A stretch of DNA of 64,000 nt from Brevibacillus sp. (GTDB lineage Bacteria; Bacillota; Bacilli; Brevibacillales; Brevibacillaceae), in NCBI GenBank assembly GCA_017656235.1, contig JACDOF010000002.1:1-64000 (forward strand), in the 5' to 3' direction. Position numbers and translations under genes: made by a program. The notes under the pieces were generated by a model. The model was not told the origin of the DNA. It made no database searches and saw only the letters and a program-made list of their open reading frames with translations. Every line of letters starts with the position of its first letter. Position 1 is the stretch's first letter. Positions 1 through 63,595 of the stretch are shown in pieces.

Positions 1-552
1 AAGCGGGAGAATACGGGCGCAACTTGAACAAACGGCGGAGCAGCGCTGCTTTTGCGCCCGCCCGCTTCGGGATGGCGAAGCGGACAGTCCGGCACCATTG
101 GTGGTTGGCAGCGTGGGGCGTTTTTCGCGCTCGCTTCCGGTGGCCAACCTGCGAAGAAGCAGCAGAGGATCGCTTCACGACGATCCGCAGGGGCAGCGTC
201 AAAACGTTGTCCCGCTGCCGACGCGATGCTGTTGCCGCTGCGATTTCCCTGCGGATACGTCGTTTCGCTGGCAGGTTGGCCAAACCGCTCGCTGGCGAAA
301 AACCGCCCGCACTCGTCATCCTGCAGATTGAATACAAAGCGAGTTCCGACAGAGCGCGGCCATTTTGCGAATGAACGACTTTGCCAACCATCCAAGCGGA
401 GCCGTCCCGAAGCGGGAGAATACGGGCGCAACTTGAACAAACGGCGGAGCAGCGCTGCTTTTGCACCCGCCCGCATCGGGATGGCGAAGCGGACAGTCCG
501 GCACCATTGGTGGTTGGCAGCGGAGTGAAGAGGAAAATGGCCGCCTCTCCCT
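1..552. repeat. Dispersed structured intergenic repeat, left copy (with internal direct repeat)
   Basis: Non-coding. Positions 1-114 recur almost unchanged at 410-523, an offset of 409 bases, so one full unit plus the start of a second is present, and the unit continues beyond the left edge. Each copy carries nested inverted repeats: AAGCGGG (1-7) with CCCGCTT (61-67), GGGCGCAA (15-22) with TTGCGCCC (52-59), and the 12-base palindrome AGCAGCGCTGCT (39-50). A second imperfect inverted pair lies at about 112-158 and 262-316. Bases 248-552 match 63006-63349 in reverse complement. The open frames here are poor and differ between copies, so I call no gene. Confidence 0.85.
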
Positions 553-576
553 AACCACACACCTTTGTCTACTTGC

Positions 577-616
577 TGGGAGGCTGAAGATGTTTCAGCC
601 TCTTTTTCGATGCATG
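577..616 (+). terminator. Hairpin with T-run at the 3' end of the P-loop gene
   Basis: The stem GAGGCTGAA / TTCAGCCTC is followed on the plus strand by TTTTTC. The stop codon of the minus-strand gene (595-597) lies inside the stem. The T-run points to termination of plus-strand transcripts coming out of the repeat. On the minus strand the hairpin has no T-run. Confidence 0.45.
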
Positions 617-3782: not shown

Positions 3783-4904
3783 TTACGGCTGCCCTGCCAG
3801 TTGGGCGGGCAGTGCTGTCCACTGGTCACGGTGAATCACTTCACTGATGGCGGGAGATCGTTTTCCGGAATGGAGTGCATCCCGCAGTTCATCAGCCGAG
3901 TAGCGGCAGATGCCGCGTCCGATCAATCGCTTGGCGGCGTAAACTTCGACCACGTCGCCTGCCTGAAACGCTCCCCGCACGTCACGTACGCCGGCGAGCA
4001 GCAGACTGCGACGCTGATGGAGCAGCGCTTCGGCAGCCCCGTCGTCAACAACGATCTGCCCCCTGACCGGCGAGTGCAGGGCAATCCACTGTTTGCGCGT
4101 AGACACGCTCACTTTTTCGCCGGCGTCGACAAAACTGCCGACATAGGTACCGTTTCCATGCCCGGCGAGGATGTTGAGCAGCGCTTCAGGGTCTTCGGCC
4201 ACACCGATAAAGCTGGGAAGGCCAAGCTTAAGGGCGGTTTTTGCGGCCAGCAGTTTGGAGCGCATGCCGCCTGTCCCCAGCGATCCGGCACTGCCGGCCA
4301 GCGCTTCGATCTCCGGCGTGATGGCATCCAGATGCCTGATTCGCTTGGCATCGGGATGTTTGCCCGGAGGTTTGTCGTACAGTCCGTTCGTATCCGTCAG
4401 CATCACGTAGAGATCAGCGTGGGTCAGTCCGGCGACGAGAGCGCCGAGCATGTCGTTGTCGCCAAAGGTGAGTTCGGCGACGGATACGGTGTCGTTTTCA
4501 TTGATAATGGGGATGACACCCCGACGCAGCAAAAGCGAGATGGTCTGGAAAGCGTGCTGATACCGTTCCCGGTTGGAAAAGTCGTCCCGCGTGAGCAAAA
4601 TCTGTGCTACGGTGTAACCGTACTGGTTGAACAGTGCTGCGTACTGCTGCATCAGCATGCTTTGCCCAATGGCTGCGGCGGCTTGTCTGGCGACCAGTGT
4701 ACGAGGCCGCTGCTGATAGCCAAGGCCGACGAAGCCGCTGGCCACCGCTCCGGACGAAACCAGCAGGGTTTCGTGACCGGCCGAACGCAGGCGAGCGAGG
4801 GCGGACACCAAAAGTTCCAGTTTGGCTGAATCGCAGCCGCCTCGCGGGGAGGCCAGTGAACTGCTTCCCACCTTCACCACGATTCGCTTTCTTGACGTCT
4901 TCAT
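3783..4904 (-). CDS. proB: Glutamate 5-kinase with PUA domain
   Basis: First, committed enzyme of proline synthesis: it phosphorylates glutamate at the gamma carboxylate. The amino-acid kinase domain fills about residues 1-260 (VVKVGSSSL at the N-terminus, the nucleotide-site segment SLGTGGMRSKLLAAK near 215). A PUA domain follows from about 280 (RGQIVVDDGAAEAL). The open frame runs upstream into the T-box leader, but the ATG at 4904 has GGAAGAG in front and gives a 373-residue protein of normal length. It is first in proBAC. Expression should be controlled by tRNA-Pro charging through the T-box, with feedback inhibition by proline as is known for the family. Confidence 0.95.
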   Translation of the reverse strand: MKTSRKRIVVKVGSSSLASPRGGCDSAKLELLVSALARLRSAGHETLLVSSGAVASGFVGLGYQQRPRTLVARQAAAAIGQSMLMQQYAALFNQYGYTVAQILLTRDDFSNRERYQHAFQTISLLLRRGVIPIINENDTVSVAELTFGDNDMLGALVAGLTHADLYVMLTDTNGLYDKPPGKHPDAKRIRHLDAITPEIEALAGSAGSLGTGGMRSKLLAAKTALKLGLPSFIGVAEDPEALLNILAGHGNGTYVGSFVDAGEKVSVSTRKQWIALHSPVRGQIVVDDGAAEALLHQRRSLLLAGVRDVRGAFQAGDVVEVYAAKRLIGRGICRYSADELRDALHSGKRSPAISEVIHRDQWTALPAQLAGQP

Positions 4905-4937
4905 CCAACGCTCTTCCTTTCGCCGTATGATGGGATA

Positions 4938-5240
4938 ATAAAAAAACCCTTTCGTCCAGCTATAAGGACGAAAGGGATTCTTTCGCGGTACCACCTTACT
5001 TGACGGCTTGCCAGCGCATGACGCTGACAGCCATCCGACTCTTCGCCGTTTTCGTTTGCTTGTGTGCAGCATGTGCAAAACGGCGCTTTCCTTGATAACA
5101 GGAGAAAGAAACCTGTCCAGGTCAACCCTGGCCGCTCCGGGATGGGTTCAAACCGTATCGTGGGCGGAACCTCCCAGCCGCTGGGTTCCGCTCTCTGAAC
5201 CAGAGGGACGGCTCTACTATTTCCCTTCACCGCGTTCACC
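4938..5240 (-). ncRNA. T-box leader (proline-type) of proBAC
   Basis: On the minus strand the T-box core AAGGTGGTACCGCG occupies 4997-4984. It is followed by a terminator with stem CCCTTTCGTCC / GGACGAAAGGG (4976-4947) and a run of Ts. Upstream, the stem I features AGTAGA and AGAGAG and the distal motif GCTGGGAGG are present. The specifier-loop strand reads GAACCCATCCCGGAG, so a CCC or CCA proline triplet is available. Known T-box logic would let uncharged tRNA-Pro stabilise the antiterminator and switch proBAC on. The exact specifier triplet is inferred. Confidence 0.9.
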
Positions 5241-6175: not shown

Positions 6176-8584
6176 ATGCAACGAAACATTCGCAAAGCGG
6201 CAGTCCTTGGTGCAGGCGTGATGGGAGCGGGAATCGCGGCTCATCTGGCCAACGTCGGCATACCGACGTATCTTTTGGACATTGTCCCGCGTGAACTGAC
6301 CGAGGAGGAGCAGAAGAAGGGCTTGACGATGCAGGACCGCTCTGTCCGCAATCGTTTTGCCGCGGCGGGAAAGCAGCGGCTGCTCAAGGAAAAACCGGCT
6401 CCGCTCTACGACAAGGACGACATTGACCTCATTACCGTAGGAAACATGGAAGACGATCTCGATCGGCTGGCCGAAGTGGACTGGATCATTGAAGTTGTGG
6501 TGGAGAACCTGGAGGTAAAGCGGCAGGTATTCGAGAAGATCGAGGCGTACCGCAGACCGGGGACGATTGTTTCGTCCAATACTTCGGGCGTCTCCATCAA
6601 CGAGATGTGCGAGGGGCGTTCGGAAGAATTCAGGCAGCATTTTCTCGGGACCCATTTTTTTAATCCTCCGCGTTATCTGAAACTTCTGGAGATCATTCCC
6701 GGTCGTGACACCAAGCCGGAGATCGTGCAGTTCATGATGCACTTTGGCGAGTACATGCTGGGGAAAGGTACGGTCCTCTGCAAGGATACACCCAACTTTA
6801 TCGCCAACCGGATCGGTACGTACGGACTGCAGATATCCATCCAGGAGATGGTCAAGCTCGGTCTCGGCGTGGACGAAGTAGACGCACTGACCGGACCGGT
6901 GATCGGACGTCCCAAGAGCGCCACGTTCCGCACGCTTGATCTGGTTGGTCTGGACACCTACGTTCATGTCGCCAACAACGTGAAACAAAAGAGCGAAGAT
7001 GCAGAAGAAAAGGCTGTCTTTGAGGTGCCCGCCTTCGTTCTGGAGATGGTGGAGAAGCGCTGGATCGGGCAGAAGAGCGGACAGGGGTTCTTCAAGCAGG
7101 AGAAGACGGCAGAAGGCAAAGAGATTCTGGCCCTGGATTACACCAACATGACCTATCGCCCCCGCGTCAAGGCATCGTTTCCTTCGCTGGAAGCGGCCAA
7201 GACCGCGAAGAGCCTTCCGCAAAAGCTGCAGGCGCTGGTCTACGGCAAGGACAAGGGCAGTCAATTTGTCTGGAATGTACTGAAAAAAGTGCTGCTGTAC
7301 TCTGCCGCCAAAATACCGGAAATCGCCGATGACATCGTCTCGGTGGACCGGGCGATGAAGTGGGGTTTTGGCTGGGAACTGGGACCGTTCGAGACATGGG
7401 ATGCGATCGGAGTGGAGAAGTCGGTTGCCCGCATGCGTGAAGAGGGCGAGACGATTCCGCCGCTTGTTGAGGAGCTTCTGTCCAGCGGCAAAACGTCGTT
7501 CTACGACAAGCGTGAAGGTCTGCTCTCTGCCTTTGCGATTGGCGGAAAGTACAAAGAGGTGGAAGAGAAAAAAGAAGTGATCAATCTGGCCCAACTGAAA
7601 GAACAGGGACGCCTGATCAAGAAAAATGCGGGAGCGGCACTGATTGACCTGGGCGACGGCGTCGCCTGCCTGGAGTTTACCTCTCCGCACAATGCCCTCG
7701 GCATGGACGTACTGCAGATGGCCGGTTATGCGGCAGAAGAAGTGAAGAAGAACTTTATCGGCCTGGTCATTGGCAATCAGGGGAAAAACTTCTGCGTGGG
7801 CATGAACCTGGCGATGGCCTTGATGGAAGCGCAGGATGAGAACTGGTTTGAACTGGAGATGATGGTCAAGAACTTCCACAAGGTGGGCAGCGCGCTCCGT
7901 GCAGTCAACCGTCCGGTGGTGGCCGCACCGTTTGGCATGACCCTCGGCGGTGGTGTGGAAGTCTGCTTCCTGGCCGATCGTGTCCAGGCGGCGGCAGAAA
8001 CCTACCTGGGTCTGGTTGAGGTTGGAGTCGGTCTTTTGCCTGGCGGCGGCGGTACCAAAGAGATGCTGTTTCGGGCGATGGAAAACGTGCCGCAGGGCGG
8101 CAGTGTCCCGGTTGACCCGTTTCCGTTCGTGGCCCGCGCGTTTGAAACCATCGCGATGGCCAAGGTTTCTACCAGCGCCAAAGAAGCGATCAAGCTGGGC
8201 TACCTGCGTCCGACCGACCGGATCAGCATCAACAGCGATCACTTGCTCTACGATGCCAAACAATTGGTTCTGGAGATGGACAGGGCGGGCTTTGCGCCGC
8301 GAAAACCGCGCAGGATTCGCGTCATAGGCGAAACCGGTTATGCCACCCTTCGCCAAAATATTCACGCAATGCGGCTGAGCGGGATGATCAGCGAACACGA
8401 TGAATTGATTGCCAGCAAGATTGCCTACGTGATGTCCGGCGGCAGTGTGCCGGCAGGAACGGAAGTAAATGAAGAATACATCCTGGAGCTGGAGCGGCAA
8501 GCCTTTATGGACCTGATCAAGACGCCAAAAACACAGCAGCGCATGCAGCACATGCTGACCAAAAACAAACCGCTGCGCAACTAA
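6176..8584 (+). CDS. fadN: 3-hydroxyacyl-CoA dehydrogenase / enoyl-CoA hydratase, FadN type
   Basis: Large beta-oxidation protein of 802 residues. The N-terminal NAD-binding Rossmann motif LGAGVMGAGIAAHLAN (about residues 10-25) and the segment SSNTSGVSINEM belong to 3-hydroxyacyl-CoA dehydrogenase. After the dehydrogenase C-domain a crotonase-like region follows from about residue 500, with the oxyanion-hole segment NQGKNFCVGMNL and PFGMTLGGGVEVC. It therefore should hydrate enoyl-CoA and oxidise 3-hydroxyacyl-CoA. The ATG at 6176 is preceded by GGGAGGG; an upstream in-frame ATG at 6137 lacks a site. It is first in fadN-fadA-fadE, the order known in Bacillus, with FadR and CcpA sites upstream. 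Confidence 0.95.
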   Translation: MQRNIRKAAVLGAGVMGAGIAAHLANVGIPTYLLDIVPRELTEEEQKKGLTMQDRSVRNRFAAAGKQRLLKEKPAPLYDKDDIDLITVGNMEDDLDRLAEVDWIIEVVVENLEVKRQVFEKIEAYRRPGTIVSSNTSGVSINEMCEGRSEEFRQHFLGTHFFNPPRYLKLLEIIPGRDTKPEIVQFMMHFGEYMLGKGTVLCKDTPNFIANRIGTYGLQISIQEMVKLGLGVDEVDALTGPVIGRPKSATFRTLDLVGLDTYVHVANNVKQKSEDAEEKAVFEVPAFVLEMVEKRWIGQKSGQGFFKQEKTAEGKEILALDYTNMTYRPRVKASFPSLEAAKTAKSLPQKLQALVYGKDKGSQFVWNVLKKVLLYSAAKIPEIADDIVSVDRAMKWGFGWELGPFETWDAIGVEKSVARMREEGETIPPLVEELLSSGKTSFYDKREGLLSAFAIGGKYKEVEEKKEVINLAQLKEQGRLIKKNAGAALIDLGDGVACLEFTSPHNALGMDVLQMAGYAAEEVKKNFIGLVIGNQGKNFCVGMNLAMALMEAQDENWFELEMMVKNFHKVGSALRAVNRPVVAAPFGMTLGGGVEVCFLADRVQAAAETYLGLVEVGVGLLPGGGGTKEMLFRAMENVPQGGSVPVDPFPFVARAFETIAMAKVSTSAKEAIKLGYLRPTDRISINSDHLLYDAKQLVLEMDRAGFAPRKPRRIRVIGETGYATLRQNIHAMRLSGMISEHDELIASKIAYVMSGGSVPAGTEVNEEYILELERQAFMDLIKTPKTQQRMQHMLTKNKPLRN

Positions 8585-8592
8585 CGCGACAA

Positions 8593-8856
8593 GGGCACCT
8601 GGATCTGGCTCGAGCAGGATGCCAATTCGACGTAGTACTCGCCAGAACGAAGCACCCGCAGGGCACCTGGATCTGGCTCGAGCAGGATGCCAATTCGACG
8701 TAGTACTCGCCAGAACGAAGCGCCCGCAGGGCACCTGGAACTGGCTCGAGGAGGATGCCAATTCGACGTAGTACTCGCCAGAACGAAGCACCCGCAGGGC
8801 ACTCGGATCTGGCTCGAGCAGGATGCCAATTCGACGTAGTACTCGCCAGAACGAAG
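8593..8856 (+). repeat. Four tandem 68-bp repeats between fadN and fadA
   Basis: Units start at 8593, 8661, 8729 and 8797. The first three are 68 bases long; the fourth is 60 bases and ends by merging into the fadA ribosome-binding site. Units differ from the first at only one or two positions, and the core from GATGCCAATTCG to GAACGAAG is identical in all four. Each contains CTCGAG and AGTACT and could form a modest bulged hairpin (GGC..GAG with CTCGCC). The period is not a multiple of three, so no repeated peptide is coded in one frame. The repeats fill nearly all of the 283-base gap inside the operon. Confidence 0.95.
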
Positions 8857-19632: not shown

Positions 19633-19804
19633 AAAAAAACCTCCTTCGCGAAGGAGGAGGCAGTCGTACTGGAAATCTCCTCTCATCTTTCAGGGCCGTC
19701 ACACAGCACCTGCAGGATTTAGCACCGTCTCGCGTCTCACGTTGCAGCCGCGTCGGTTGCCGGGCTTCATCGGGCCAGTCCCTCTGCCTTCTCTCGATAA
19801 GAGT
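19633..19804 (-). ncRNA. SAM-I riboswitch (S-box) of mtnWXBD
   Basis: On the minus strand the aptamer shows P1 CTCTTATC / GATGAGAG, the conserved AGAGGGACTGGCCCGATGAA and GGTGCTAAATCCTGCAG, then the expression platform with terminator CCTCCTTCGCGAAGGAGG and a T-run (19657-19633). SAM binding should favour the terminator and stop transcription before mtnW. Confidence 0.97.
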
Positions 19805-20054: not shown

Positions 20055-20233
20055 TCCTTATCCAGAGACGGTGGAGGGACTGGCCCGATGAAACCCAGCA
20101 ACCGACATGCTCTTTGAGCATGCACGGTGCTAATTCCTGCAGAAGCGAAGAATTCTGGAAGATAAGGGGGAGAAGATACAGCGTAATGCGTGCGTACAAC
20201 CTCTTTTCTCCGGAAAAGAGGTTTTTCTTTTTC
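20055..20233 (+). ncRNA. SAM-I riboswitch (S-box) of mtnKA
   Basis: P1 CCTTATCC / GATAAGG closes the aptamer (about 20055-20168), with GGAGGGACTGGCCCGATGAA and CGGTGCTAATTCCTGCAG inside. The terminator CCTCTTTTC TCC GGAAAAGAGG (20200-20221) and T-run follow. It is the second S-box here, pointing the other way. Confidence 0.97.
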
Positions 20234-63005: not shown

Positions 63006-63349
63006 AGGAGAGGCGGCCATTTTTCTTCCTCACTCCGTTGCCAACCACCAATGGTGCCGGGCTGTCCGCTTCGTCATCCCGAAGCGGGCGGGCGCAAAAG
63101 CAGCCCTGCTGCGCCGCTGGTTCAAGTTGCGCCCGTAATCTCCCGCTTCGGGCTTGCTCCGCTTGGATGGTTGGCAAAGTCGTTCGTGCGGAAAATGGCC
63201 GCTCTCCTGTCACACTCACTGTCTGGGGGCGAACAGGGCATCGTACGCTGCTGGTTGAGTGCCAGAACTCTCGCTGGGAACGAGTGTGGGCGGTTTTTCG
63301 CCAGCGAACGGTTGGGCCAACCTGCCAGCGAAACGACGCATCCGCAGGC
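63006..63349 (-). repeat. Dispersed structured intergenic repeat, right copy (inverted)
   Basis: Reverse complement of 248-552: identical blocks include CAACCACCAATGGTGCCG, CCCGAAGCGGGCGGGC, TTCAAGTTGCGCCCGTA, GCTTGGATGGTTGGCAAAGT and GCCAACCTGCCAGCGAAACG. About 40 extra bases lie near 63205-63270, so the copies differ by an insertion or deletion as well as point changes. The open frames here lack family features and conserved starts. Confidence 0.88.
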
Positions 63350-63595
63350 CAGTCCAGCTTCCTTGCTGGTCAGGCAACCGCGCGGGCAGGACTTTTGCAC
63401 CCTTCGGGATACTTTGCTTACAAACTGCAGCGAATTGGGATTTTCCCATTCGCTTTTTTCTTTTTTTGACCGGAATAAATTTCCTTCCTGGTGTAACATT
63501 GCGCAGGGGATGTTCGTCATACATAGCGGCACGATACAACAGCAGCTGAAGTACTGAATCTGTCCAATTCGATGCGTAGGAAAGGTGAATGGGAA
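63350..63595. other. Intergenic region before the Lrp/AsnC gene
   Basis: Bases from the repeat border to the GTG at 63596. Frames are open on both strands but with no conserved start or family. No clear promoter found. Confidence 0.4.

Follow-up and report, generated by a model that had tools for sequence, protein, structure and literature searches.

The repeat at the left end of the analysed window (64,000 nucleotides of a Brevibacillus sp. draft genome, G000) is very probably a composite, non-autonomous MITE-like element whose ends are those of an IS1182-family clade of insertion sequences (IS) and which duplicates a host hairpin as its target. The repeat is apparently moved by a transposase that is intact in a sister species, and recognition of the target probably depends on its structure.

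The initial annotation described a nested-hairpin repeat with a 409-bp period, and most of its structural description was reproduced. Positions 1-113 recur at 410-522 with 98% identity and a spacing of 409, the nested arms that it cited fall in predicted helices, and 0 of 100 shuffled sequences fold equally well on either strand (z-scores of -5.6 and -4.9 for the two strands, over 570 bases). The second inverted pair that it placed between the copies was recovered at 110-128 with 295-313 (79%) and at 141-152 with 271-282 (100%), and forms the stem of module A. The 409-bp period is instead the product of a B-A-B fusion at the contig end, unique among the compared loci. A truncated module B is fused directly to module A at 103-120 (GGTTGGCAGCG followed by TGGGGCG), and such a direct B-A fusion was confined, among the loci compared, to the window and the identical locus L001; 409 bp is therefore not the unit of the family. 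The natural unit consists of one or more modules enclosed by two ends, of which the right one lies in the window at 563-578. The features of the family in the window are as follows.

1-113, plus strand: second copy of module B, equivalent to 410-522; the contig end truncates it, and at about 103-120 it joins module A directly.
113-317, plus strand: module A, about 205 bp, a long inverted-repeat (snap-back) module that recurs as a block at many places.
318-552 (start approximate), plus strand: module B, about 235 bp, a nested-hairpin module also present in two sister species, mostly at 71-74% identity.
563-578, minus strand: right terminal inverted repeat, CAGCAAGTAGACAAAG as read on the minus strand, with one mismatch to CAGNNTGNAGACAAAG.
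580-607, plus strand: terminator-like hairpin GAGGCTGAAGATGTTTCAGCCTC (580-602) followed by TTTTT, directly outside the right end.
63007-63348, minus strand: second family member of the window, module B plus part of module A (79% match), adjoining a C-type end.
63412-63427 (within 63412-63453), minus strand: end of this second element, with two mismatches to the end motif.
63430-63453, minus strand: hairpin GCGAATTGGGATTTTCCCATTCGC adjoining the end of the second element, followed by a T run.

The window spans positions 1-64000 of contig C2, and the left repeat copy is cut because the window begins at the first base of that contig. The hairpin at 580-607, which overlaps the stop codon of a minus-strand ORF (595-1455), is presumed to be the surviving copy of a duplicated target whose left copy was lost at the contig end. 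The B-A fusion reflects either local recombination or an error of assembly. That the whole 409-bp arrangement arose from a collapsed repeat at the contig end is a real possibility, to which we give somewhat less than an even chance: it begins at contig base 1 and its B-A fusion is unique among the loci compared, but tandem A-B copies do exist elsewhere (L047, L048), though joined through ends and a hairpin. Contigs C20 and C23 likewise have family copies close to a contig end, and the family may therefore be breaking the assembly.

The genome-wide count of copies proposed in the initial annotation yielded matches to positions 1-552 at 65 or more places in G000, window included, a lower bound for which 40 of 138 first-look candidates were scored. 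The repeat is not confined to the copies of the window, nor, given the absence of an Rfam match at 1-552, does it correspond to an rRNA or tRNA spacer or a known gene. The longer matches in G000 share 78-94% identity with the window copy. Modules A and B are defined by the query positions at which most matches break, 113-317 and about 318-552. A further type, module C, has the same ends; it matched G000 at 41 places, often only in part, and had no match in the sister species G001 and G002 at an E value of 0.001. Modules A, B and C all take the form of long snap-back hairpins. Inspection of the flanks of 40 elements in 38 regions revealed that ends of the form CAGNNTGNAGACAAAG enclose the modules and that the same hairpin often lies just outside both ends of an element, with a different hairpin at each locus. 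The end pattern CAGNNTGNAGNCAAAG, allowing one mismatch at most, occurs 149 times in G000, 118 times in G001 and 100 times in G002, against 14, 24 and 17 occurrences, respectively, of its reversed control.

Intact members have terminal inverted repeats of about 16 bp, and the accepted elements (16 loci) measure 190-613 bp between ends; the window copy shows one end, its left end having been lost. The elements are short, multi-copy and non-coding, as judged for the absence of genes from their length and from the ORF list of the window. At 16 of 19 loci they flank the 3' end of a gene, in a set chosen for flanking hairpins and with crude ORF calls.

The inspection of flanks for target duplications suggested by the initial annotation was carried out on 71 loci or records, 25 of which retain both ends. 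At 16 of these 25 (11 in G000 and 5 in G001 or G002) a direct repeat abuts the ends and exceeds every cross-locus control, with scores of 24-54 compared with a maximum of 20 in 1038 cross-locus pairings. In this test the ends were anchored, the control was restricted to different loci and the best-scoring pair per locus was used. An earlier control, under which 9 of 33 pairs passed, was set too high by nested pairs that had flanks in common at a single locus. The end-anchored tests also supersede a first test with fixed flanks, in which 22 of 46 elements exceeded the 99% cross-pair level (25) and 19 of 46 the maximum (34). Exact repeats measure, for example, 21 bp (L071), 27 bp (L068), 24 bp (L092) and 25 bp (L038 and L040).

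Fourteen of the 16 duplicated stretches are stable hairpins resembling intrinsic terminators, more stable than 97 of 100 shuffles; the repeats of L058 and L087 do not go beyond shuffles, 21 and 28 of 100 being equally stable. The hairpin-sized duplication covers 15-32 bp in the own genome. No qualifying repeat was obtained at 9 of the 25 loci, among them the window, where the left end is lost and a duplication is not demonstrable. The initial annotation saw no target duplication because the duplication is hairpin-sized and its left copy was lost at the contig end. L035 and L039, two MITEs of G001 at different hairpins, are identical at all but 2 of 263 bases, and this near-identity suggests recent movement in that species.

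A candidate for the moving enzyme was found in G001, where six pairs of ends (CAGATTGCAGACAAAC/CAGCCTGTAGACAAAG), each with a spacing of exactly 1545 bp, bracket a transposase gene. Its product matches the IS1182 family model NF033551 with 491.5 bits (family cut-off 270). Only the ends relate the MITEs to the IS; the MITE interiors are unrelated to it. Whole-hairpin duplications of about 20-31 bp flank four of the six IS copies; of the other two, L109 has an 8-bp duplication as judged by eye and L112 has none. In G001, searches with this transposase gave nine copies at 98-100% together with five more at 69-71%; G002 had four partial matches in a single region, and there was no match in G000, a draft of 31 contigs that could have lost a copy. 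An autonomous partner with matching ends was hence found in G001 and not in the own draft, and the copies in G000 therefore look orphaned. Three NF033551 matches on contig C12 of G000 fell below the cut-off and were discarded as a partner. The MITE-like nature of the repeat and its movement by a transposase encoded elsewhere, both suggested by the initial annotation, are supported by the terminal inverted repeats, the target duplications, the many copies and the same-ended IS of the sister species.

The transposase ORF of L110-L114 has no stop inside the IS, and in 5 of the 6 copies in G001 the first base outside the left end completes a TGA stop codon. This arrangement is not general, as a stop at that outside position occurs in only 8 of 73 relatives. 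Residues D146, D273 and E400 are invariant in an alignment of six transposases (A1) and are the putative catalytic residues.

The generality of the duplication was assessed in related IS copies from other Bacillota. One scan of species genomes with the six aligned transposases was used, and the best 80 of 570 confirmed stretches were analysed. Both ends were found in 73 of these 80 loci, and in 58 of the 73 an abutting repeat scored above the cross-pair control. All 58 duplicated stretches are hairpins, with 5 or fewer of 100 shuffles as stable. The duplications measure 20-42 bp (median 26.5), clustering at 20-35 bp with one of 42 bp, with T-rich sequence following the right copy in 48 cases and A-rich sequence preceding the left one in 41. 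Because several genomes contribute many copies (Bacillus sp. OV166 accounts for 8 of the 80 loci), the 58 are not independent; the remaining 15 of the 73 give no qualifying repeat. Fixed flanks of 220 bases detected the repeat in only 29 of 73 copies because many ends lay further out. Detection of the terminal inverted repeats ran into the hairpins because these are palindromes, and in so doing exposed the duplication in L119, L120, L121 and L124.

Refolding of the single-copy sites placed the duplicated stretch exactly on the axis of the stem in 48 of the 58 copies and within 2 nt of it in all 58, and this centring on the hairpin axis is the result that stands. The outermost G-C pair lies inside the duplicated stretch in 44 copies, mostly 1-3 nt from each edge, and the predicted stem extends beyond it in the other 14. 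Duplication length correlates with hairpin span in the former 44 (r = 0.70), and less so when the wider sites of all 58 are considered (r = 0.20, or 0.31 with the whole stem). A correlation of 0.96, at one point taken as support for a hairpin ruler, was dropped; it was built in, because the duplicated stretch had been folded alone.

Empty counterparts of two filled IS sites were available for comparison. In a pair of phages, Javan87 carries two hairpins with the IS between them and Javan90 a single hairpin with no insertion; in a pair of plasmids, E. faecium DO plasmid 2 is filled and has two hairpins, and E. faecalis pJF3A-4253-2 is empty and has one. Both pairs confirm that the insertion turned one hairpin into two. 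Two further candidates for empty sites were not counted: L224 (E. faecium pC4-1-2) has a single copy of the hairpin that differs by one base, and in L225 (E. hirae) the sequence next to the hairpin is rearranged. Two more filled sites, L219 and L221, were read outside the compared pairs. An empty counterpart was found for none of the MITEs.

As a rule, DDE transposases have a fixed, short target stagger. Duplications of 20-42 bp that are hairpins in 58 of 58 cases and centred on the hairpin axis therefore suggest recognition of a folded target. The transposase would recognise the palindrome as a structure, either an extruded hairpin or a cruciform, and join the 3' ends of the element at symmetric points near the arm bases, in most cases 1-3 nt beyond the outermost G-C pair; joining there would leave a gap whose repair copies the hairpin. 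The MITEs would use the transposase of the IS in trans, and the own genome would have lost its transposase, leaving its copies as fossils.

An enzyme that cuts with a nearly constant stagger, about 26 bp around the centre of the palindrome, and takes no measure of the hairpin would account for the clustering of lengths around their median and for the low correlation with hairpin span in the wider sites. We consider this rather unlikely, since duplications end at the stem base in 44 of 58 copies, mostly just outside the last G-C pair, where length follows span. That the flanking hairpins belong to the element and are not a duplicated target is hardly credible: the repeat, where present, is nearly always a hairpin, but each hairpin is locus-specific and matches only its own partner, and both empty IS sites have a single one. 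Equally remote is a REP/BIME-type repeat spread by a RAYT (Y1 HUH) transposase, a resemblance noted in the initial annotation. The repeat is indeed multi-copy and palindromic, but the Y1/RAYT domain PF01797 was found in none of the three genomes of the genus, compared with 5 of 14 control genomes, and the accepted elements have terminal repeats, long target duplications and a length of 190-613 bp that do not agree with such a family.

The duplication of a folded target by an IS1182-type element, which we prefer, was also weighed against a structured non-coding RNA family, that is, a regulatory 3' UTR element spread by recombination, with an incidental mobility signature. Module B was aligned in 24 chosen sequences (12 from G000, 6 from G001 and 6 from G002). 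Changes on both sides that keep pairing occur at 12 of its 46 predicted pairs, 96.2% of the cells pair, and compensatory cells number 57, compared with 18.3 in shuffles and 6 at most with a slid partner. These covariation cells represent few events shared by the species. The check for a conserved fold advised by the initial annotation thus returned pairing in module B that is kept by compensatory changes across three species, together with a covariance-model search of Rfam that gave no match at gathering score at 1-552. The compensatory changes and the frequent position at the 3' end of genes speak for an RNA. Against it stand the terminal repeats shared with an IS, the hairpin duplicated at most intact insertions, the lack of an Rfam match at 1-552, and a number of further pair types in module B no higher than in shuffles (31 against 29.2, with 88 of 500 shuffles reaching 31); besides, DNA required to remain palindromic would covary too. 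On balance, the RNA family is improbable. The pairing of module B may be kept for an RNA, for the DNA, or by copying between arms, and possible roles for modules A-C include pairing of the ends, a folded 3' UTR or insulation.

More distant IS1182 groups, analysed without a cross-pair control and with element ends allowed to shift by 3, give a less uniform picture. In the G046/G008 group the ends were found in 8 of 9 loci (all except L255), and all 8 have repeats of 4-9 bp; visual inspection placed 7 of these 8 in a hairpin loop, and the script placed 4 of 8 there. Among the distant relatives, L226-L232 and L256 have 4-9 bp repeats that by eye mostly occupy the loop of a terminator-like hairpin. 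The group with GAGGGTGTCCC ends (7 of the 8 fetched loci, L248 being left out) has no repeat in 5 of 7 and a 3-bp repeat in 2, and the G044/G050 group has a 3-bp repeat in 1 of 6. Repeats of 4-6 bp are present in all 5 loci of the G041 group and repeats of 4-8 bp in all 3 of a third G046 group, in each case with one in a loop, and these two groups do not support hairpin targeting.

Group IIC introns target intrinsic terminators, like the present elements, and are retroelements not known to duplicate their target. For IS1182, ISfinder reportedly gives direct repeats of 0-60 bp, and its curators may therefore have seen whole-hairpin duplication. Within the IS1182 family, IS1272/TnSha1 is described in passages of two reports as targeting hairpins or terminators by structure and not by sequence, and as replacing or deleting the hairpin with no duplication (PMC5678879, PMC4923244). 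The transposase family is the same, whereas the present clade duplicates the whole hairpin; replacement of the IS1272 type was therefore rejected for this clade, given the 58 of 73 relatives with a duplicated hairpin and the two empty sites that agree. ISCaa15 and ISPse1 also have IS1182-family transposases but, according to parts of the corresponding reports, 4-bp repeats (PMC3196728, PMC3281130).

Bacterial MITEs (PMC10969869) and the pneumococcal BOX, RUP and SPRITE repeats (PMC3049150) are characterized in sections of these sources as short, non-coding, structured, multi-copy and often clustered or composite. The present repeat has the same traits, and those sections mention no member that duplicates a host terminator. 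SPRITE is itself terminator-like, with no established duplication in the portion of PMC3049150 concerned. No whole-hairpin duplication by an IS1182 element is described in the literature searched (titles, abstract openings and selected passages). The repeat is thus of a known kind, a MITE of an IS family, and it differs in the whole-hairpin target duplication, whose only precedent in the literature searched is hypothetical.

This precedent is Figure 13 of PMC5678879, where duplication of the whole hairpin (pathway b) and of the loop (pathway c) are hypothetical branches of one cruciform model. The present data agree with the first of these branches and suggest the second. Several IS1182 groups might read a hairpin and not a sequence, a single structure-guided strand transfer with shifted joining points leading to three outcomes: the hairpin replaced (IS1272), its loop duplicated (G046-like) or the whole hairpin duplicated (the present clade and its MITEs). 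We put this proposal forward tentatively, at just under an even chance, and the single reaction behind all three outcomes is what we infer from their comparison.

Whole-hairpin duplication would make an insertion nearly neutral, since the outer copy retains the terminator of the gene. The inner copy could serve as a terminator for the transposase gene and, in the IS of G001, contribute the final base of its stop codon. Duplication of this kind would likewise account for the harmless build-up of elements beside genes. Pairs of empty and filled sites could be used for testing cruciform target choice, and tandem terminators and long 3' UTR hairpins annotated in these genomes may be insertion scars.

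Other features of the window were recorded as well. At 8592-8856 a 68-bp unit is repeated 3.9 times in tandem (95% matches), between an ORF ending at 8584 and another starting at about 8868 (fadB-like and thiolase-like by eye). A T-box leader (RF00230, 94 bits) at 4961-5239 on the minus strand overlaps the start of the minus-strand ORF 3783-5078, which by eye looks like a glutamate 5-kinase of a proline gene cluster. Two SAM riboswitches are arranged back to back on opposite strands, at 19680-19803 (minus) and 20055-20168 (plus).
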